From Bacteroidaceae bacterium (GTDB taxonomy: Bacteria; Bacteroidota; Bacteroidia; Bacteroidales; Bacteroidaceae): a stretch of 64,000 nucleotides of DNA. The stretch is taken from positions 1 through 64,000 of the forward strand of contig JAILDV010000010.1 of the NCBI GenBank assembly GCA_024688885.1, given 5' to 3'. The notes below the pieces were generated by a model. It ran no database searches. It saw nothing but the letters and a program-made list of their open reading frames with translations, and was not told where the DNA came from. The translations under genes and the position numbers were made by a program. Positions 6,532 to 34,306 of the stretch are shown here, in pieces (within the stretch, counting starts at the first letter, position 1; every line of letters starts with the position of its first letter).

Positions 6532-7121
6532 CACGCATCGGCATCACTGGAGGTATCGGCAGCGGAAAGACATACGTCTGTCAACTGCTCAAACAGCGTG
6601 GCATCCCTGTCTATAACTGTGACGAAGAAGCCAAGCGACTTATGACAGAAAGTCCCGTCATCCGTAGGAAATTATGTGGCATTCTCGGCGACAAGGCATA
6701 TTTGGACAATGCACTCAACAAAAACCTTATCGCACAATACATCTTCACCGACAACAATCATGCCGCCCGCATAAACGCCATCGTTCATCCCGTTGTCCGT
6801 CAAGATTTCCTCCGATGGGCTGCACTACAAAACAGTCCCATTGTTGCACAAGAATGTGCTCTCCTTTTCGAGTCTGGATTTCAAGACACAGTTGACGCCA
6901 CCATCGAAGTTTTCGCCCCACTGTCTCTGCGTCTCCAACGAGCCACACAACGCGATCATGCTACCACTGAGCAGATTCTCGCTCGCATGGCACAACAGAT
7001 GAATGAAGAAGAAAAGCAGCAACGTGCCGACTACTGCATACTCAATGACAGCACAATAGACTTGGAAGAACAGATCGACCACATCCTCAACCAACTAAGC
7101 AACAAATACACTAATAAATAA
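6528..7121 (+). CDS. coaE: Dephospho-CoA kinase
   Basis: A 197-residue protein of normal length. It starts MTRIGITGGIGSGKTYVCQL, where GGIGSGKT is the P-loop, and continues with YNCDEEAKRL, the substrate aspartate region, and the LLFESGF lid. CoaE phosphorylates the 3'-hydroxyl of dephospho-CoA, the last step of coenzyme A synthesis. It overlaps the upstream ybbR-like gene by 4 bp and is 10 bp from the DUF5606 gene. Confidence 0.96.
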   Translation: MTRIGITGGIGSGKTYVCQLLKQRGIPVYNCDEEAKRLMTESPVIRRKLCGILGDKAYLDNALNKNLIAQYIFTDNNHAARINAIVHPVVRQDFLRWAALQNSPIVAQECALLFESGFQDTVDATIEVFAPLSLRLQRATQRDHATTEQILARMAQQMNEEEKQQRADYCILNDSTIDLEEQIDHILNQLSNKYTNK

Positions 7122-7131
7122 AATCAATAAT

Positions 7132-7563
7132 ATGATCAGAAAAATTCTTGCCATCTCAGGCAAACCAGGGCTTTACAAGCTCATCTCACGAGGCAACAAG
7201 AGCCTCATCGTGGAAACCGTAGACGAGCAAAAGAAGCGCATCCCTGCCTTCGGAGCTGACCGTGTCGTATCCCTTGGAGACATTTCCATCTATACCAACG
7301 ACGACAGTGAGGTCAAACTCTCCGCTGTCTTCGAATCCATCAAACAGAACTATGGTGACAAGCCTCTTGACCTCTCTCCCAAGAAGGCATCGCAGGATGA
7401 CATCATCGCTTTCTTCACCAAAGTGTTGCCTAACTACGACACCGACCGCGTGCGTGTCAGTGACATGCGTAAAGTCCTCTCATGGTACAACATCCTCACC
7501 GCTGACGGCATCACTGATTTTGACGACAAAGAAGAGGAGGAGGCAAAGGAGTCTGAAGACTGA
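7132..7563 (+). CDS. DUF5606 family protein
   Basis: A 143-residue protein starting MIRKILAISGKPGLYKLISR, the typical opening of the Bacteroidetes-specific DUF5606 family. The N-terminal half is a small beta domain (SLIVETVDEQKKRIPAFG), the C-terminal half a helical DNA-binding-like fold (ILPNYD-type: KVLPNYDTDRVRVSDMRKVL) and an acidic tail. Its function is unknown. It closes the nusB operon, followed by a strong terminator. Confidence 0.88.
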   Translation: MIRKILAISGKPGLYKLISRGNKSLIVETVDEQKKRIPAFGADRVVSLGDISIYTNDDSEVKLSAVFESIKQNYGDKPLDLSPKKASQDDIIAFFTKVLPNYDTDRVRVSDMRKVLSWYNILTADGITDFDDKEEEEAKESED

Positions 7564-23797: not shown

Positions 23798-23959
23798 ATG
23801 GTCAGGTTCAATACCCGACCATTAGAACGTAGTGGAGATGGAGGGGCCAAGAAATAAAAAATGATCGGGTTCAATACCCGACCATTGGAACAAAGTGGAG
23901 ATGGAGGGGCCAATAAAATAAAAAATGGTCAGGTTCAAGACCCGACCATTGGAACAAAG
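23798..23959 (-). repeat. Three tandem copies of tmRNA 3'-end plus terminator hairpin
   Basis: Three units of 63-64 bp follow the tmRNA. Each has a 14-bp copy of the tmRNA 3' end (TGGAGATGGAGGGG on the plus strand, at 23833, 23896 and the genuine 23960) and a hairpin (23798-23822, 23861-23885, 23925-23949) whose minus-strand form is ATGGTCGGGT-loop-ACC-GACCAT followed by a T run. Each hairpin looks like an intrinsic terminator on the minus strand. Confidence 0.88.
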
Positions 23960-24356
23960 TGGAGATGGAGGGGATTGAACCCTCGTCCAAACAAGGAAGC
24001 CATACGCTTTCTACATGCTTATTCTTGCCTTCGGTTTTCGTGATGCAGCAAGACCAAGACCACCAACTGCACCCTTATCCTCTAAAGTTTCACCAACAGA
24101 GCGAGGCATCTGCTGACTATTCCCGATTTTATAGCACCGCTGATCAGAACGCTTCAGGACAGGTAGCTTTCTGGGCGATGTCTCGTTCCCCTGTCTAACA
24201 AGGGAATTAGGCCATATCTACTATGCTTCGATTAGGCAGCGAGAGCGTAACGAGTTTCGCCAATTAATTCTTTGATGTCTGAGATTTGAGAGAGGGGCAT
24301 CGACTCTCTGCATGCTTACGTACCACCTCATCTTGCTGTCAAATCCAGTCATCCCC
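23960..24356 (-). ncRNA. ssrA: tmRNA
   Basis: A 397-nt RNA on the minus strand. The 5' end GGGGATGACTGGATTTGACA pairs with the 3' end CATCTCC to form the tRNA-like acceptor stem (seven pairs, one G-U), and GAGGGTTCAATCCCCTC is the T-arm. The tag reading frame at 24261-24232 reads GGC GAA ACT CGT TAC GCT CTC GCT GCC TAA, giving GETRYALAA. It rescues ribosomes stalled on broken mRNA and marks the peptide for proteolysis. The discriminator A is at 23960 and CCA is not encoded. It is preceded by tRNA-Cys and lacks its own clear promoter, so the two are probably one transcript. Confidence 0.96.
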
Positions 24357-24411
24357 GACTGTCACTTGCAGCGCTTGGCGTCACTTCGCCAAACCTCTGG
24401 TGATAAGTAGG

Positions 24412-24438
24412 GCTCAACCAGCCTCAGCCAATTGAGCC
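24412..24438 (-). other. Spacer hairpin between tRNA-Cys and tmRNA
   Basis: GGCTCAA and TTGAGCC arms (7 bp) enclose a 13-14-nt loop. It lies in the 95-nt spacer of the presumed tRNA-Cys/tmRNA transcript and may guide processing. A second small hairpin, TTGGCG/CGCCAA, sits closer to the tmRNA 5' end. Confidence 0.45.
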
Positions 24439-24451
24439 TCTTTTCTCGTTT

Positions 24452-24526
24452 TGGAGGTGCGTACCCGATTCGAACGGGTGTACACGGTTTTGCAGACCGT
24501 TGACTAAGCCACTCATCCAACGCACC
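24452..24526 (-). tRNA. tRNA-Cys (GCA)
   Basis: 75 nt including an encoded CCA. The acceptor stem GGTGCGT/ACGCACC pairs perfectly, the anticodon arm is CGGTCTGCAAAACCG with anticodon GCA, and the T-arm is ACCCGTTCGAATCGGGT. Confidence 0.96.
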
Positions 24527-27631: not shown

Positions 27632-30529
27632 CTACTCTTCCCCTGAAGAAACACTCATATAGCCCTGTTCAAACACCCAAGGATGAAGGAAGCGAGACTC
27701 CTTGTTGGCAAAGGCCACAATGATGAAACGCCCATCTATCGACTTCACCACACCCTTGCCAAAAGATTTGTGTATAACGAAATCACCTACCTGTAAATGT
27801 TCCCATGCAGATTCCGCAGGATTTTTCCTCGCCTTCCCTACAGGGAGAGAGTGGTTACCTTGCTCGTTAGCATCCGCACTCGTTACAGCATTCCTCTCCC
27901 TATTGGCAGAGATACTCCCCCCTACCTGTTGGGAGGATGAAGAGAGGGTCTTTTCCTTTAATGAGGGTGAGATGATTGTATTCCTTTCTATTGCCGTATC
28001 CCAGCCACCTATCACAGTTCCCCTATGCGTGTCGATGCCCGTATAGTCGAGGCTGCTGTCCTCATAGCGTTTGAACTTATACACCGCATCGTTCATCAGT
28101 TCGCTGTTGAACACATTCAGGCTCACCAACAATTCAAAGTCGCTGATGCTCAAGCCCGTCACCTTGCGGAACAGCTCTGGCTCCAGATTCACAATCACAT
28201 CCTTCAGCGAATACTCGCGGTAGTCCGTCAAGTACATGAACACGGGAATACGTGTGGCAAACTTGATGAGCTTCTGCTGAATCTCCTTCCTCTTGCTCTT
28301 ATATTCCTTCTCTGCCTCCGTCAGTTCCTTCTTCTGCTTCGGCGTGAGATGCTCGCCCTGCTCACGCTTGGTCTTCTTCACCTGCTCGCTCTTGTTGATG
28401 ATAGTCTCGATGTCCTGATTCAGCGAGCGGAAACCCTCGATGTTCATCAGTGCCTTCATCGCCTCGGGCGAGTTCATCAATCGTCCTAAGGTGGCGTTGT
28501 CCACATTCACCAGCACCGCACTCTCCCATCGCCTTGCCAACAGCGTGGCGGTGGTGCCGCTCATCGCCATGTCGAGAATACCCGCCGCATCAATCTCCTT
28601 CATCGAACTGCCGTCATACGCCAGCACGGGCAGGAAGCGGATGAACTCCTCCACCTTCTTCTCGGGGTTGGGTTCATGCAGATTCAGTTGGCAACTGTAC
28701 TCCTCCACCTGCCGAAGGGCACGGTTGGGTGCAAAGTCAAATACATAGCAGTAAGGCTTCAAGATGACCTCCTTGCCCCATTCGTCCCGTGTGGTCCAAG
28801 GCGACTGCACACGAAACGCTGCCTGGAAGTAGGTCTCTGGCGAACGGGCATTGCGCAGCATCAGGATGCCCGTCCAAGGCCGCACCGTCACACCCGTCGA
28901 GAGTTTGCCGCACGAGAGCGTGATGGTCTTGCTCTGACGTGGGTCACCCTCCCGGTTCATCGCCTCATACACAGGCAGCACCGCTTCGGCACCCATGCCA
29001 GCCTCATTGCCGGCAGCCACCACCACCTCATAGTCGTGATAGAAGTGGTTGACAGGTCTTGCCATCAGCCTCTCCATCGCCTTGCAAGCCGCCACTGAAG
29101 GCAGGAACCAATAGGTGTGTTGCAGGTAACTGAGCAGACGCACATCCGAGAACGGCATCGGCGGGCGTTCCGTGCCCTGTTTCAGTTCCGTGATGATGTT
29201 CTCCCTGTACGAGCCTCGAATCAGGTCAAGCCACTTCTGCACATGCTCTTCATGCACAAAGCCCCGTTCGTCGGCACGGAAGAACTCATTCAGGTCGAAC
29301 TCGTCAAACTCTCCTTGGTCAGCCACCTCCTTGATGCTGTCGGGCAGTTGGTAGGTCATCATCACCATCTTGGGCAAGGCTCTGTAGGGATTCGGCATCC
29401 CCTTCGTCTCCGGGTTGCTGTCCCATGCCTCCTTTTCCCGCTGTTCGTCCGAGTAAGTCCAGTTGTAGATTTGCTCCTCGATAAATTCTCCTGTGCTGAT
29501 GGCACGGAACGGCGTGCCCGACAGATAGAGGTAGGTATGCGTGGTCAGCGGCATCAGCTCCTCGTCGTAAAGTTCGCGGCTGTCCAGTTCCTTGCGGTCA
29601 GCGGCATCCTCCGCCATCAGTTCGCCCACCTCGACGGCACGCGCCAACTGCTCCACATCCTGCTTGTTGTAGAAATCCTTGGCATGCTTGCCCCAAGCTC
29701 CATAGTGATACTCGTCCAGCACGATGCAGTCCCACTCCACCTCCTGAATCCATTCGTTCGTTGCCTTGATGCCACCCACGGCATTGCGTCCCAGCACATC
29801 CTGAAAAGAGGCAAAGCATACGAAGGGGCGATGTTCGTTCACCCGATTGAACTGCGCATTCTCTTGTTTCTCGCAGAACTGCCAACCCTCAAAGTCCTGA
29901 TGCGTCAGCAAGTCCTCCTTCCAAGCCGTCTTCACCGCAGGCTTGAACGTGAGCACCAGCAGCCGCTTCCACCCCATGCGGAGTGCCAGCTGATAAGTGG
30001 TGAAGGTCTTGCCGAAACGCATCTTGGCGTTCCAGAGAAAGTGGGGTATCAGTTGAGGCGAACCCGCCTTACCCGTTCGTCCTGCCGCCAGTTCCTCCTG
30101 ATAGAATGTCTCGAAGTATTCAGCCGTCTTTTTCACCGCCTTCCGTTGTTCGGGACGCATGTCGAACGTCTCTGTACGCTCCAGCATCGTCTCGCTTCCC
30201 GCCTTCACCGCCTTGATGGCTCGCTCCACATCTCTCACTGAGCAGCGGAACCACTCCCCTTCGGGATTGGAATATCCAGCCTCACGCAGCAGACGATGCA
30301 CGGCACGGTCATCGAACGAAGTACCGTCTGCCTTCATAGCGGAGCGCACCAACACAATCCTGTACTTCAGATGTGCCGTCTGGCATTGCTCTGCCACACG
30401 CGCCTCGGCGGTGCGCACCGTGTAGCCCACTTTCAGCAAACCCCGATGCGAAGGCACATCGGGCAGCTCATAAGCATAGATGGAGGGTTCTTTCTCCACC
30501 CTCGCTTGCAATAGTTCTGTTGTTGCCAT
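27632..30529 (-). CDS. GIY-YIG/T5orf172-type nuclease fused to SF2 helicase (restriction subunit-like)
   Basis: A 965-residue protein. The N-terminus (about 15-110) looks like a T5orf172/GIY-YIG domain (SIYAYELPD, GLLKVGYTVRTAEARVAEQ). The helicase core follows, with motif I MRFGKTFTTYQ (about 175), motif II LDEYHYG (about 270), motif III LSGTPFRA and a C-terminal helicase lobe with AAFRVQSPW. A charged coil (about 730-775) and a C-terminal CarD/Tudor-like domain (VGDFVIHKSFGKGVVKSID) end it. It resembles the restriction subunit of a restriction-modification-like system whose methyltransferases are at 31547-33701. A Ser/Asn-rich linker near 870-925 looks inserted. Nuclease and translocase activity are inferred from domains. 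Confidence 0.82.
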   Translation of the reverse strand: MATTELLQARVEKEPSIYAYELPDVPSHRGLLKVGYTVRTAEARVAEQCQTAHLKYRIVLVRSAMKADGTSFDDRAVHRLLREAGYSNPEGEWFRCSVRDVERAIKAVKAGSETMLERTETFDMRPEQRKAVKKTAEYFETFYQEELAAGRTGKAGSPQLIPHFLWNAKMRFGKTFTTYQLALRMGWKRLLVLTFKPAVKTAWKEDLLTHQDFEGWQFCEKQENAQFNRVNEHRPFVCFASFQDVLGRNAVGGIKATNEWIQEVEWDCIVLDEYHYGAWGKHAKDFYNKQDVEQLARAVEVGELMAEDAADRKELDSRELYDEELMPLTTHTYLYLSGTPFRAISTGEFIEEQIYNWTYSDEQREKEAWDSNPETKGMPNPYRALPKMVMMTYQLPDSIKEVADQGEFDEFDLNEFFRADERGFVHEEHVQKWLDLIRGSYRENIITELKQGTERPPMPFSDVRLLSYLQHTYWFLPSVAACKAMERLMARPVNHFYHDYEVVVAAGNEAGMGAEAVLPVYEAMNREGDPRQSKTITLSCGKLSTGVTVRPWTGILMLRNARSPETYFQAAFRVQSPWTTRDEWGKEVILKPYCYVFDFAPNRALRQVEEYSCQLNLHEPNPEKKVEEFIRFLPVLAYDGSSMKEIDAAGILDMAMSGTTATLLARRWESAVLVNVDNATLGRLMNSPEAMKALMNIEGFRSLNQDIETIINKSEQVKKTKREQGEHLTPKQKKELTEAEKEYKSKRKEIQQKLIKFATRIPVFMYLTDYREYSLKDVIVNLEPELFRKVTGLSISDFELLVSLNVFNSELMNDAVYKFKRYEDSSLDYTGIDTHRGTVIGGWDTAIERNTIISPSLKEKTLSSSSQQVGGSISANRERNAVTSADANEQGNHSLPVGKARKNPAESAWEHLQVGDFVIHKSFGKGVVKSIDGRFIIVAFANKESRFLHPWVFEQGYMSVSSGEE

Positions 30530-30576: not shown

Positions 30577-30885
30577 TCAGAGCATGGCGGCGCAAACCTT
30601 GCGGATGCTCAGCAAACGAGAACGCAGCGTTGGTTTCTGTCTCGCAAATGCCATGTTGTAGCGGTTCTGCATATTGATGAGCAGTTCGGGCGAGATGCCC
30701 AATGCAGCTTCCACCATCAAAGCGAAATCAGTTGAAACAGGACGTTTCCCATTCAGAATCTCATTCAGTTGCGTGTAAGGAACACCCAACAACTCGGCAA
30801 ATCTCTTCTGCGAGATGCCTCTGCTTTCAATCTCTTCTTTCAGCACATCACCCGGATGTGTCGGTAGTCTCTTGATGGTTTCCAT
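30577..30885 (-). CDS. higA: HigA-type antitoxin
   Basis: A 102-residue HTH protein. It starts METIKRLPTHPGDVLKEEIE, the typical HigA opening, and has the helix-turn-helix GISQKRFAELLGVPYTQLNE followed by NGKRPVSTDFALMVEAALG. It neutralises the HigB-like toxin encoded 14 bp upstream and represses the operon. Sited between the helicase gene and the methyltransferases. Confidence 0.92.
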   Translation of the reverse strand: METIKRLPTHPGDVLKEEIESRGISQKRFAELLGVPYTQLNEILNGKRPVSTDFALMVEAALGISPELLINMQNRYNMAFARQKPTLRSRLLSIRKVCAAML

Positions 30886-30899
30886 TGTAGTGCTCCTTT

Positions 30900-31208
30900 C
30901 TATTGATAGTGATTCGTAATATCTGTCACGGTGCAGATGCTGACCAACGTCTCTTCGCCATCGACCCTAATCTTAAACTCCAACCTATAGTGATAATCTA
31001 TGCGGATAGAGTAATAGCCATTGTCGAGTGCCTCGAAGTTCAACGAATTAAAGACAAACAAGTCCTCCATGCGTGTGGCAGCCATCAACGTATCTATTCT
31101 TTTCTGATATTTTTGTACCACCGGCTTCTGGAATCTGTACTTTTTGTTCTTGCAGACACCAGACTCGTAGAGTTCTCGTAAATAGTCCTTTTCGTATTCT
31201 ATGACCAT
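30900..31208 (-). CDS. higB: HigB/RelE-ParE family toxin
   Basis: A 102-residue protein with the RelE/ParE fold pattern: EKDYLRELYESGVCKNKKYRF, LNFEALDNGYYSIRIDYHYRLEF and a C-terminal strand VSICTVTDI. HigB toxins cleave mRNA in the ribosome. Toxin precedes antitoxin, as usual for higBA. The gene has its own promoter and operator just upstream. Confidence 0.85.
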   Translation of the reverse strand: MVIEYEKDYLRELYESGVCKNKKYRFQKPVVQKYQKRIDTLMAATRMEDLFVFNSLNFEALDNGYYSIRIDYHYRLEFKIRVDGEETLVSICTVTDITNHYQ

Positions 31209-31546: not shown

Positions 31547-33034
31547 CTACTCCATCGGTCTTATCATGCTCTCAATAAAGGCTATCTCTTCATCACTCAA
31601 CCCATACTTCTTGTATAGCATCTCGTCTGTCCACGAATGAGAGAAGTCTTGGAGGGGGACAAAGGAATAAACATCTTTAGTGGTGTCTTGTGTAACTTTC
31701 TTCAACATAGCCATAAACCGACAGAATCTCGTTTTTATATAGGAGATAACATTTTCACATTCATTCTGATTTGAAAATGGACCAATGAACATATAAGTTT
31801 CAGAACAAGCAGAGGTTGGTTCACCGACAAAAGGTCTTCCCAAAATAACATGAGGAAAACTATCACTACCACTACTTGCTCTTGGTATATAGACCTTATA
31901 TTTATTCACAATCTCTTGATTCTTTGTTATATTTGTCATTTCCACATAGGAAATCCCTTGATTTTCATAGAATTTTATCGTGCCACTTTTTCGTCCATGA
32001 TAATTTGTACTTAAACCGAAGGGCTGCCTTGAGCTAACTCTTTCTTTCATGGACACTTCTTTGAACATCTGTACTTTATGCAAGATACTGATTGCTTCAT
32101 TATACCTGATGAAGCTGTCACATCCTTTTTCCAACAGAGGACGTGACATGCCAGATGTCACCTCACCGTTTTGGTGTGTGCACACCTCACAATCACCTTT
32201 GTTATCTCTATTCCATAAGAAATAGCAAACACCGCCTTTAATTTGTACACCGGGGAAACACTCATAAGCTTGTGGATAATCATGAATAACTCTTATACTT
32301 CTGTCATGTAGCATTTCGTTTCTAAATTTTTCAAGACCTTTTCCGCCAGCATACCAACGTGCTGGAACAATCATTATTAAAAAGCGAGGATTTAGTCTTT
32401 TGGCTTGGATAATGAATTTATCGTAGATAGGAGTTGCACTTATACCAAAACCTCCATCACTTAACTGATACGGAGGATTCCCTATAATTACGTCAAACTT
32501 CATATTATTAAATAATGTGTGTGGTTTGTCTGTGTGAATAAACTGATAGGCATATTGTTCGGCTTGGTCGCCTCGGTCATACACCTCTTGGGAGGCTCCG
32601 CAGTAACGGCACTTGCCACTCACCCATGTGTGGCGAAGCGCACGATAGAGAATGTTACCACCTTCGGTGTCGAAACGAGTGACGCTGTAATCGCTGTTGG
32701 CGTTCTTGGAACAATAGACGGAACGGCGAGAAAGATGGGCTGTCAGCTCCGTGATGGCGATGCCAAACACCTGCTTGCGCAGGATGTGGTCAATACGCTG
32801 GCGACGGTCAGGCATCTGCGCCTCAAGTCCTCGGTCAAGCCGCTTGACAATCTCACGGAGAAACACACCCGACTTCGACACAGGGTCGAGAAACGTGGTA
32901 GTAGGCGACGAGAACAACTCCTGCGGCAATAAGTCCAGCACTTGGTTCGCCAGCGAGGGAGGCGTGAACACCTCATCGTTGCTCAGATTGGCGAGGCAGT
33001 TGAGCACATCGGGATTGTACGTGTCAGTTTTCAT
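31547..33034 (-). CDS. Eco57I-like N6-adenine DNA methyltransferase
   Basis: A 495-residue protein. It has EVFTPPSLANQVLDLLP, a motif-I region FLDPVSKSGVFLREI and the catalytic motif IV FDVIIGNPPYQLSDGG (about residues 175-190). A CRYCGASQEVYDRGDQAE segment between them may bind zinc. The C-terminal half (about 300-495) is likely the target-recognition region. Close relatives, from memory, read DPACKSG in motif I, so the VS here is a change at a usually conserved site. It methylates adenine to protect host DNA, with the helicase protein as restriction partner. It overlaps the upstream methyltransferase gene by 11 bp. Confidence 0.88.
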   Translation of the reverse strand: MKTDTYNPDVLNCLANLSNDEVFTPPSLANQVLDLLPQELFSSPTTTFLDPVSKSGVFLREIVKRLDRGLEAQMPDRRQRIDHILRKQVFGIAITELTAHLSRRSVYCSKNANSDYSVTRFDTEGGNILYRALRHTWVSGKCRYCGASQEVYDRGDQAEQYAYQFIHTDKPHTLFNNMKFDVIIGNPPYQLSDGGFGISATPIYDKFIIQAKRLNPRFLIMIVPARWYAGGKGLEKFRNEMLHDRSIRVIHDYPQAYECFPGVQIKGGVCYFLWNRDNKGDCEVCTHQNGEVTSGMSRPLLEKGCDSFIRYNEAISILHKVQMFKEVSMKERVSSRQPFGLSTNYHGRKSGTIKFYENQGISYVEMTNITKNQEIVNKYKVYIPRASSGSDSFPHVILGRPFVGEPTSACSETYMFIGPFSNQNECENVISYIKTRFCRFMAMLKKVTQDTTKDVYSFVPLQDFSHSWTDEMLYKKYGLSDEEIAFIESMIRPME

Positions 33035-33701
33035 AGGCTTGTTGGTTGAGGTTCAAGAAATACACAGGAGGAAAGGTGTCGCAGGGCGTGTCGCTGAAGA
33101 GGTCGCCACCCTGCCCCGTTGCCACCAGATAGGAGAAACTGTAGTCGCGGCGCACCACCTTGCCATCGCCTATGAACGACCACTCGCTCACCACAATCCA
33201 TTCGTCGGGATGATCCACACGACGATAGGTCAACGCATCGCCCATGATGATGTTGCGCTCCAACAGAAACTCCACCGCTTTGCGACAAGCCGGTTTACAC
33301 GCATCGCCAAACAGCCGCTCGTACTGCTCACAAAAGTAGTCATAGAGCCGCTGCCGACACGCTGCCGCATTGTCGGGCAAAAGTTCGATGCCGTAGATGC
33401 TGCTCACCGCCCACACGGCATGCTTCTCATACTGCAACTGGGTGAACTGCTTCCGTTTCACCCGCTCTTCACACACCGCCAACTTGCGGCGCAAAATCTC
33501 AATGAGGAAGTTGCCGTCGCCACACGCCGGCTCCAGAAAACGGCTCTCGATGCGTTCCGTTTCCTGCTTCACGAGGTCGAGCATCGCGTTCACCTCACGT
33601 TCGGCAGTGAACACCTCGCCATGCTTCGACACACGCTCTTTCGACTTGATTTGCCGCTCCAACTTGGGAGAAGGCATCAAGCCTGCGTCCATGCTTTCCA
33701 T
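33024..33701 (-). CDS. SAM-dependent methyltransferase-like protein without NPPY
   Basis: A 225-residue protein from ATG at 33701 (MESMDAGLMPSPKLERQIK); a GTG at 33719 and ATGs at 33707 and 33692 are alternatives. It has HGEVFTAEREVNAMLDLV and a classic SAM-binding motif I FLEPACGDGNFL (about 54-65), then YGIELLPDNAAACRQRL and IIMGDALTYRRV. Where motif IV (NPPY) should follow, it reads DEWIVVSEWSF instead. So it can bind SAM but probably not methylate adenine alone. It directly precedes, and overlaps, the NPPY-containing gene, so the two may act as subunits. Confidence 0.82.
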   Translation of the reverse strand: MESMDAGLMPSPKLERQIKSKERVSKHGEVFTAEREVNAMLDLVKQETERIESRFLEPACGDGNFLIEILRRKLAVCEERVKRKQFTQLQYEKHAVWAVSSIYGIELLPDNAAACRQRLYDYFCEQYERLFGDACKPACRKAVEFLLERNIIMGDALTYRRVDHPDEWIVVSEWSFIGDGKVVRRDYSFSYLVATGQGGDLFSDTPCDTFPPVYFLNLNQQAYEN

Positions 33702-33738
33702 GTGCATTTCATGCTGCACATCAGTCTAAATCGGAAGA

Positions 33739-33898
33739 AATACAGGTTACATCCAATGAGAAACACCTCGGGCACTTGAAGGCACACAAAAAGCGTGGAC
33801 TTTCCTTATCAAGTACCCGAGGTATTTGGCGTAACCTGTATTCAGTGATAAGTCCTGCCCACGCTCCAACGTGAACATGAACTATTTCAACTGAATAC
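33739..33898 (-). ncRNA. Candidate structured leader RNA upstream of the methyltransferase operon
   Basis: The minus-strand transcript of this stretch can form three long helices: 33739-33750 with 33831-33842 (12 bp, perfect), 33765-33779 with 33809-33823 (14 pairs plus one G-U that is only favourable in minus-strand RNA), and 33838-33846 with 33890-33898 (9 bp, sharing AATAC with the first). In addition, AGCGTGG (33792-33798) in one hairpin loop complements CCACGCT (33859-33865) in the other loop, a possible kissing interaction. No known RNA family is recognised. A weakly coding frame without ATG also spans it. Confidence 0.55.
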
Positions 33899-34057
33899 CT
33901 TTTCAAATCGCCAAATTTTCGGGGTACTTCGAGATAGCTAATGCTTTGGTTAATATGTTATGTTATCTAATTCTCTGTCTGGTTTTGTTTGTTTTTGAGG
34001 TTTCACATCGCGGCGTTCTCCCACACTCCAAGAAAGCGAGTGCCGCATTTCTTTTTG

Positions 34058-34065
34058 CAAATCTA
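34058..34065 (-). promoter_or_regulatory. Weak candidate -7 box of the methyltransferase operon
   Basis: TAGATTTG on the minus strand (plus 34058-34065) matches the -7 consensus, but no TTTG is found at the right distance upstream. If used, it would give a leader of about 340 nt containing the structured region. Confidence 0.3.
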
Positions 34066-34110: not shown

Positions 34111-34157
34111 AATAATCGGGACAAAAGGGCGTTTCATGCCCATTTATCCCGATTATT
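34111..34157. other. Bipartite hairpin in the intergenic region
   Basis: AATAATCGGGA at 34111-34121 pairs perfectly with TCCCGATTATT at 34147-34157, and an inner GGGC/GCCC stem (34127-34130 with 34138-34141) closes a 7-nt loop. It has no obvious upstream gene on either strand, so a terminator role is uncertain. Confidence 0.55.
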
Positions 34158-34237: not shown

Positions 34238-34306
34238 ATTACGCTGCAGGGCACAAGCAAATTACGCTGCAGGGCACAAGTAAATTACGCTGCAGGGCAA
34301 GAGTAA
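34238..34306. repeat. Three direct repeats with 23-bp period
   Basis: ATTACGCTGCAGGGCACAAG begins at 34238, 34261 and 34284, each unit 23 bp and differing at a few bases near its end. Just before the array is AGACGTAATT, also found next to the repeat array near 60918. Confidence 0.85.

Follow-up and report, generated by a model that had tools for sequence, protein, structure and literature searches.

An apparently undescribed family of structured leader RNAs in Bacteroidota: candidate transcription attenuators upstream of restriction-modification and other operons

Background

Attenuators of the trp and his type consist of leader strands that pair in a chain (1:2, 2:3, 3:4), with a U-run after strand 4, and lie between the promoter and the first gene. 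Transcriptional riboswitches combine conserved loops between covarying helices with a terminator-like platform and many copies, and for some of them a tandem arrangement is known. Restriction-modification (R-M) systems must be held back until the host DNA is methylated. R-M genes are known to be controlled by controller proteins and antisense RNA, which set their timing or level.

Structured RNA candidates confined to Bacteroidetes include Bacteroidales-1, Bacteroides-1, Flavo-1 and Bacteroid-trp, in the part of PMC2864571 considered here. A further report, PMC8040213, gives 3161 candidates, which are tabulated in its supplements, and the motif described below may be one of these, without a name of its own. 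In its main text, PMC3874152 does not contain the word "riboswitch" and has "attenuat" once, of host killing; the main text of PMC12707154 contains none of riboswitch, attenuat, leader, untranslated or transcription termination. The literature searched, which included few subscription journals or bioRxiv preprints, showed no structured leader of R-M operons in Bacteroidota.

The window studied here is a stretch of 64,000 nucleotides from a Bacteroidaceae bacterium (assembly GCA_024688885.1, contig JAILDV010000010.1). In it, an original prediction had placed a structured leader of unrecognised class, with possible alternative conformations, upstream of a methyltransferase operon. The leader shares with the trp/his attenuators the chain of pairings, the U-run after strand 4 and the position, and differs from them in that leader peptides are not enriched, that three additional helices lengthen the 2:3 form into a long rod, and that one leader stands before unrelated operons. 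It resembles transcriptional riboswitches in its conserved loops, terminator-like helix, many copies and a tandem pair; unlike those, it shows no common metabolic theme and no Rfam match at the gathering threshold. In contrast to controller proteins and antisense RNA, it is a shared structured leader. With the candidate motifs of PMC2864571, as described in that part of the paper, it has in common that a structured RNA is confined to Bacteroidetes. From conservation, covariation and gene context, we describe it as a member of a large, apparently undescribed Bacteroidota family of mRNA leaders.

Results and discussion

A conserved minus-strand element upstream of the methyltransferase genes

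On the minus strand the predicted 160 nt fold at -78.5 kcal/mol, compared with -38.8 +/- 4.0 for 200 shuffles, none of which was as good (z -9.89); the fold of the same 160 nt on the plus strand is weaker (z -5.91). Promoter motif and gene both lie on the minus strand as well, in agreement with the predicted RNA of that strand, and a plus-strand RNA was rejected on these grounds. Weak antisense matches of the covariance models occur (35.9 bits in locus L019) because of the palindromic make-up of the RNA.

The helices of 12, 15 and 9 bp and the loop-loop complementarity were all found where they had been placed, the complementarity being read as F3 (33857-33864) with E3 (33793-33798); the five bases said to be shared by two helices are those at 33838-33842, where D and the 9-bp helix G overlap. 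The supposed 15-bp helix (B-C) is also present, though it has 18 contiguous pairs once G-U is counted (33762-33779/33809-33826), and its comparative support is weak. The core of the family is instead a long-range pairing of strands A and B, which the first reading had overlooked, which is conserved throughout the family and which competes with the 15-bp helix for the same B strand. Similarly, the interval 33739-33898 does hold the structure, but the conserved element runs on to 33946 (Table 1). Its core scores 189.8 bits (E 9.8e-41) with model R1 and 152.4 bits (E 1.5e-24) with model R2, the window being among the sequences from which both models were built.

Table 1. Features of the leader and of the genes behind it (positions in the window)
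Feature	Positions	Strand	Basis or remark
Putative promoter -7 box TAGATTTG (TAnnTTTG)	34058-34065	-	Read from sequence; motif enriched in family
Conserved family core, P1 to U-run	33786-33946	-	Full covariance-model match
P1, small hairpin NAGC-GTTW-GCTN	33935-33946	-	Imperfect in window (AAGC/GCTA)
K5, strand 1	33928-33937	-	K5-K3 swap test; pairing weak by eye in window itself
A strand of rod (A1 + A2)	33909-33929	-	A-B pairing and covariation
G5 arm of 9-bp helix	33890-33898	-	Inverted repeat and rod covariation
F hairpin (K3 + F5 with F3 + F3x), strands 2 and 3	33851-33883	-	Swap test; core helix 98.7% of cells paired
G3 arm of 9-bp helix, overlaps D	33838-33846	-	Inverted repeat and rod covariation
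B strand; partner A (rod) or C	33811-33831	-	Covariation of both pairings
E, strand 4; with F3/F3x gives terminator-like helix	33793-33810	-	Swap test and covariation
U-run (5 U) directly after E	33788-33792	-	T-richness across family
C strand, second arm of 15-bp helix, clade-specific	33762-33779	-	86.9% paired, 20 sequences
D3 arm, 12 bp with 33831-33842 (D5)	33739-33750	-	96.2% paired, 20 sequences; swap test
Small hairpin ATGTGCA/TGCACAT at methyltransferase start	33700-33721	-	Paired change TGTGCT/AGCACA in L020
First downstream gene, DNA methyltransferase-like ORF	33024-33719	-	Pfam MmeI_Mtase E 6.1e-6 (just below cut-off), weak N6_Mtase; PADLOC MTase_II E 6e-10
Second gene, Eco57I-type methylase	31547-33034	-	Pfam Eco57I E 5.9e-34
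T5orf172 domain and restriction-type protein, further down	27632-30529	-	Pfam T5orf172 E 1.7e-9; PADLOC REase_MTase_IIG E 2.9e-30

By eye, the first methyltransferase ORF has motif I (LEPACGDGNF) without NPPY and the second has NPPY (31547-33719); the two consecutive ORFs may, from their sequences, act as a heterodimer. A HigB-like/HTH pair at 30577-31208 separates the second methylase from the T5orf172 protein. Elsewhere in the window, a 20-nt inverted repeat (90%, 7-nt loop) at 34111-34157, between a PAP2 gene and the leader, is possibly a terminator; about three direct copies of AATTACGCTGCAGGGCA can be made out by eye at 34238-34303; and tmRNA and tRNA-Cys genes are found at 23957-24526.

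Relatives of the first methyltransferase were collected by a scan with its ORF, the best 80 of 360 being kept. Their aligned leaders form a block of about 225 nt, the indels of which are not multiples of three. Translation of the in-frame stretch with CAFKCPRC, a 61-aa ORF without Pfam or PADLOC match, had been considered as a competing explanation and is ruled out by these frame-breaking indels. Arms that vary without compensation had been named as the other observation that would speak against a structured RNA; in the rod and the D helix, double changes are found. Across 20 sequences, A-B has 93.6% of cells paired and 10 of 18 pairs doubly changed (for example TTTGCCG/CGGCAAA in L020, L021 and L023), and D is doubly changed in 7 of 12 pairs. 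The corresponding count for B-C is five pairs, one cell each; the C strand was not recognisable by eye in L050, L051 and L057. Support for B-C stops at the close clade, L025 and L046; it was dismissed as a conserved core and looks like a clade-specific later refolding step.

Distribution of the family

The covariance search with homologous upstream regions that the original prediction had proposed recovered the same RNA of about 160 nt widely in Bacteroidota. Of the 20 sequences behind model R1, 19 are leaders of the window's methyltransferase and one is a helicase leader; the latter, L025, comes from another genome of the genus, and in its longer version (L150) the locus falls into one cluster with the SNF2/PLD helicase L249. 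This model was run on 71 loci, drawn from the 80 by leaving out L036-L039 and L042-L046, all of which had a DNA match already, and it placed the RNA ahead of the same methyltransferase in 20 of them. No plus-strand R1 match up to E 10 was obtained in the remaining 51, which come from other families and phyla.

At the level of genomes, the RNA is present in 105 of 393 Bacteroidales (R1, E <= 0.01), in 54 of 395 drawn from the phylum Bacteroidota (R2, E <= 0.001) and in 42 of 45 from the window's own genus, with up to 19 copies per genome; the DNA of the window's element itself is present in 17 of these 45, its own genome included. Among the matches listed for the 45 genomes there are 278 copies, nine of them in the own genome, where one (G000:C49:62456-62629) precedes an EcoRI-type methylase gene and another (G000:C58:1180-1350) an HsdM gene. 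Locus L206 carries tandem copies about 50 nt apart (6999-7170 and 7220-7371; 34.8 and 73.2 bits). In a control set of 35 genomes reached via other loci (E <= 0.01), 1 of 28 counted by their titles as outside Bacteroidota matched, a Verrucomicrobia MAG (L074, 55 bits, E 2.7e-6), and so did 1 of 7 counted as Bacteroidota, Gelidibacter gilvus (81.6 bits). A phage or plasmid origin was considered and set aside, the window copy having no match in plasmid or phage collections (one query each); one exact pattern sought in viral contigs was not found there.

At gathering thresholds no Rfam 15 family matched the window, 15 divergent loci or three further loci, in line with the earlier statement that no known class was recognised; permissive searches gave nothing but microRNA, snoRNA and plastid matches at chance level, which fall far short of the thresholds. 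These same loci are likewise without a match to the motifs that carry Rfam numbers in the part of PMC2864571 considered; GUCCY-hairpin and Bacteroides-2 carry none there.

Two mutually exclusive sets of pairings

The rod consists of A1-B1, A2-B2, G, K3-F3x and F5-F3. In all 98 distinct rows of alignment A3, 92.8% of its cells are paired, whereas shuffles reach 63.7% and slid strands no more than 42.2%; 35 of 37 pairs show double changes, and the covariation score is 0.753 versus 0.233 shuffled. Many of the pairs are G-U. Fitting of the rows to the model favours structure, but the covariation score and a strand-swap test agree. In the latter, partner strands were exchanged between the sequences of 94 RNAs, with segment borders taken from the model-fitted alignment. 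L019:1562-1722, L206:6999-7170, L186:7981-8133 and the duplicate L152 were dropped from the swap, promoter/U-run, D5, leader-ORF/flank and mirrored-gene counts and from the spacing of 95 hits, and were retained in the rod and F3-E covariation.

Swapping supported the rod pairings K3-F3x (z 12.5) and F5-F3 (z 9.6), and also three pairings that exclude these two, K5-K3 (z 8.3), F3x-E5 (z 6.3) and F3-E3 (z 10.7). Control strand pairs (A1-E5, K5-F3x, K5-E5, F5-E3 and P1-E3) gave z -1.5 to -0.5, and a P1-E3 pairing was therewith discarded. Taken alone, F3-E is 91.1% paired and doubly changed in 9 of 12 pairs. The alternative conformations suggested at the outset are thus borne out by competing pairings that each covary, and, judged by this covariation, mutually exclusive helices are both under selection. 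P1 is a hairpin of 4 bp, TAGC/GCTA in 27 and AAGC/GCTT in 19 of 88 rows.

Within the 90 nt downstream there was no pairing signal for F3, G5 or A1 (swap z -0.3 to 0.7), and pairing of E3 with downstream sequence was abandoned as a general feature (z 2.2, with 17 of 1000 shuffles as high). Signals for F5 (z 5.1) and K5 (z 3.9) lie outside the attenuator model set out below. Downstream pairing of D5 reaches z 10.6 in the 57 members that a loose TTCG/TCGA pattern selects, and is weaker (z 5.6) in another 63; 34 of 154 RNAs have no match to the D5 pattern.

Stepwise folding of the window leader formed all 15 tested A-B pairs with the polymerase at the U-run. Up to the U-run the rod has the lowest energy; further on, D with B-C takes its place, at -87.8 kcal/mol versus -69.4 kcal/mol with A-B forced. 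In nested folding of 154 RNAs, the free fold is more stable than the terminator form (F3-E) by a median of 13.3 kcal/mol.

Promoter, U-run and spacing to the gene

TAnnTTTG occurs 15-175 nt upstream, most often 50-75 nt, in 122 of 149 members compared with 15.1 +/- 3.3 in shuffles, and between RNA and ATG in 0 of 123 cases. The seven bases after the E stem have a T share of 0.69, versus 0.28 further downstream; at least five of the seven are T in 115 of 151 members scored (three more were unscored), and fewer than five in 36, some of which may be explained by pattern errors. The longest same-strand ORF starting within 500 nt begins at a median of 68 nt past the model end (93 of 95 hits) and, in a second hit set, at 73 nt (63 of 64). 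An ATG ORF of 100+ aa starts on the same strand within 150 nt in 122 of 151 members, compared with 7 of 90 divergent ones at the mirrored place. By position, then, the element lies as a cis-regulatory 5' leader RNA would, between a putative promoter and a co-directional gene, and the original reading as such a leader is supported by conservation, promoter position and gene spacing together.

Leader ORFs are not enriched, being found in 26 of 123 cases versus 48.5 +/- 5.4 in shuffles, that is, fewer. The window's own leader counts among the 26: its 32-codon ATG frame stops immediately ahead of P1. A trp-type leader peptide over strand 1 was discarded, as leader ORFs are rarer than in shuffled sequences. 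Shortly before P1 (33947-33968 in the window), a flank motif ACATA[TA] is present in 85 of 155 members versus 9.2 in shuffles; it is a possible protein site, or possibly the partner of an ATGTCC that is frequent after the U-run by eye.

Genes behind the leader

We collected 155 distinct hits, of which 141 with a first ORF starting within 300 nt were clustered into 78 clusters; Pfam was run on 78 representatives and 40 single proteins (30 shared), and other members are named by BLAST cluster only. The loci are the best-scoring hits of each list, so that the fractions of gene classes lean to window-like RNAs. Methyltransferases of many types were recognised by Pfam (Eco57I, N6_Mtase/HsdM, EcoRI_methylase, MmeI, N6_N4_Mtase, C5 DNA_methylase and D12), and further first genes match ResIII, PLD-SNF2 helicases, GmrSD, dynamin, DarT, DprA, the ExoVII large subunit and HIRAN. 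Others are acyltransferases, MBOAT, a TonB receptor, and LytTR and response-regulator proteins; T9SS-sorted secreted proteins make up 6 of the 78 representatives. In L281, L283 and L286, from large genomes of the same class, the RNA precedes proteins of about 1000 aa of one cluster, and the first gene of L286 matches TonB-dependent receptor Plug.

Of 53 well-scoring genus loci, 50 had a first gene in range; 33 of these genes belong to methyltransferase (25) or restriction-type helicase (8) clusters, and the other 17 are DprA, ExoVII and HIRAN (3) and acyltransferases, secreted or unassigned proteins (14). In the order-level sample, which has three own-genome loci in common with the genus sample, 18 of 71 fall in methyltransferase clusters or N6_Mtase matches. 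The control element for a restriction system that had been proposed therefore does precede many R-M genes but is not specific to this system, and a leader restricted to R-M operons was rejected, given the 17 of 50 genus loci and the order-level copies before secreted proteins and regulators. Conversely, the RNA lies directly upstream of 9 of 30 genus EcoRI-methylase loci (one weakly, E 3.8e-4) and upstream of at least 14 of 57 HsdM_N matches in the genus; the rate for an average gene, estimated from 278 copies in 45 genomes, is well under 1%. The leader is thus an optional module.

RNA similarity was 0.691 for the same gene cluster in different genomes (65 pairs), 0.506 for different clusters in one genome (41 pairs) and 0.514 for neither (1272 pairs). 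Since RNAs of the same cluster are more alike than those of the same genome, the RNA tends to stay with its operon.

A candidate attenuator and its alternatives

Promoter, competing strands 1:2, 2:3 and 3:4, U-run and gene together make up the layout of an attenuator, and we lean towards reading the window copy as one of many cis-acting 5' leader RNAs, widespread in Bacteroidota, that would work by transcription attenuation. Transcription of the leader would start at the promoter upstream of the element, and four strands would then compete: K5 (1), K3+F5 (2), F3+F3x (3) and E (4), followed by the U-run. If 2:3 zips and G, A2-B2 and A1-B1 prolong it into the long rod, E would stay free and the polymerase would continue into the restriction operon. 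Formation of 1:2, or a block to the rod, would let 3:4 form just before the U-run, and transcription would stop. In the window's clade, read-through transcripts would gain C and D; by pairing with B and D5 these would take the lower rod apart, and the leader would refold before the start codon. The conserved internal loops (GAAA/ACCTC and TTT/RGG), unpaired nucleotides between the covarying rod helices, may be the part that reads the signal. We infer both termination at the U-run and the direction of the switch. As the F3-E form is less stable than the free fold, we take it that the leader is read through by default and that termination is what is regulated. The energy difference, and the fact that rod formation can be finished before the polymerase has made E, mean that a factor, pausing or a kinetic trap would be required for termination. 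Against attenuation speak also the loop of F3-E, which is large for an intrinsic terminator, the 36 of 151 members with fewer than five T at the place scored, and the window's run of five U.

The conserved rod loops might instead bind a small molecule, the attenuator being the expression platform of an orphan riboswitch. Such loops between covarying helices, up to 19 copies per genome before diverse genes, the tandem pair in L206 and leader peptides that are not enriched are all consistent with this; the downstream genes, however, are without a common metabolic theme, and while methyltransferases would suggest SAM, acyltransferases, TonB receptors and secreted proteins do not. On this evidence we regard a riboswitch as possible and rather unlikely. 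That a protein controls read-through or translation by binding the leader (a NusG-like antiterminator, an RNA-binding protein or an operon product) seems to us unlikely: it accords with the conserved loops, the frequent ACATA[TA] flank and the start-codon hairpin of the window and its close relatives, yet autoregulation by one operon product cannot explain the unrelated genes.

The upstream promoter motif and the terminal U-run would also suit a free-standing small RNA that ends at the U-run terminator and has the downstream gene as a mere neighbour. The tight same-strand spacing, with its contrast to the mirrored place, the lack of TAnnTTTG between RNA and ATG, and the pairing of D with sequence beyond the U-run make this improbable. 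We give hardly any credit to an element acting as DNA, such as a folded recombination site or mobile repeat. Several copies per genome, some within a few hundred bases of contig ends, would fit it; orientation and gene spacing are fixed, though, the promoter motif lies upstream, G-U pairs are many, RNA similarity follows the downstream gene cluster and not the genome, and the plasmid and phage collections hold no match to the window copy.

Conclusions

The attenuator reading concerns a family that is frequent in the genus and seems to be missing from Rfam. Standing before methyltransferases of types I, II and III, MmeI-like enzymes, GmrSD and further defence genes, a common leader would give them a layer of control that they share. 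Tentatively, and with less confidence than we have in attenuation itself, the family might be a dedicated class of RNA switch for bacterial immunity and phage-exposed functions, a modular leader on unrelated restriction, modification and surface-modification operons that reads a common cue and lifts a transcription block on all of them. The cue would then be infection, nucleotide or polymerase state, or growth, and the leaders would constitute an RNA-level regulon that spans unrelated defence systems across Bacteroidota.
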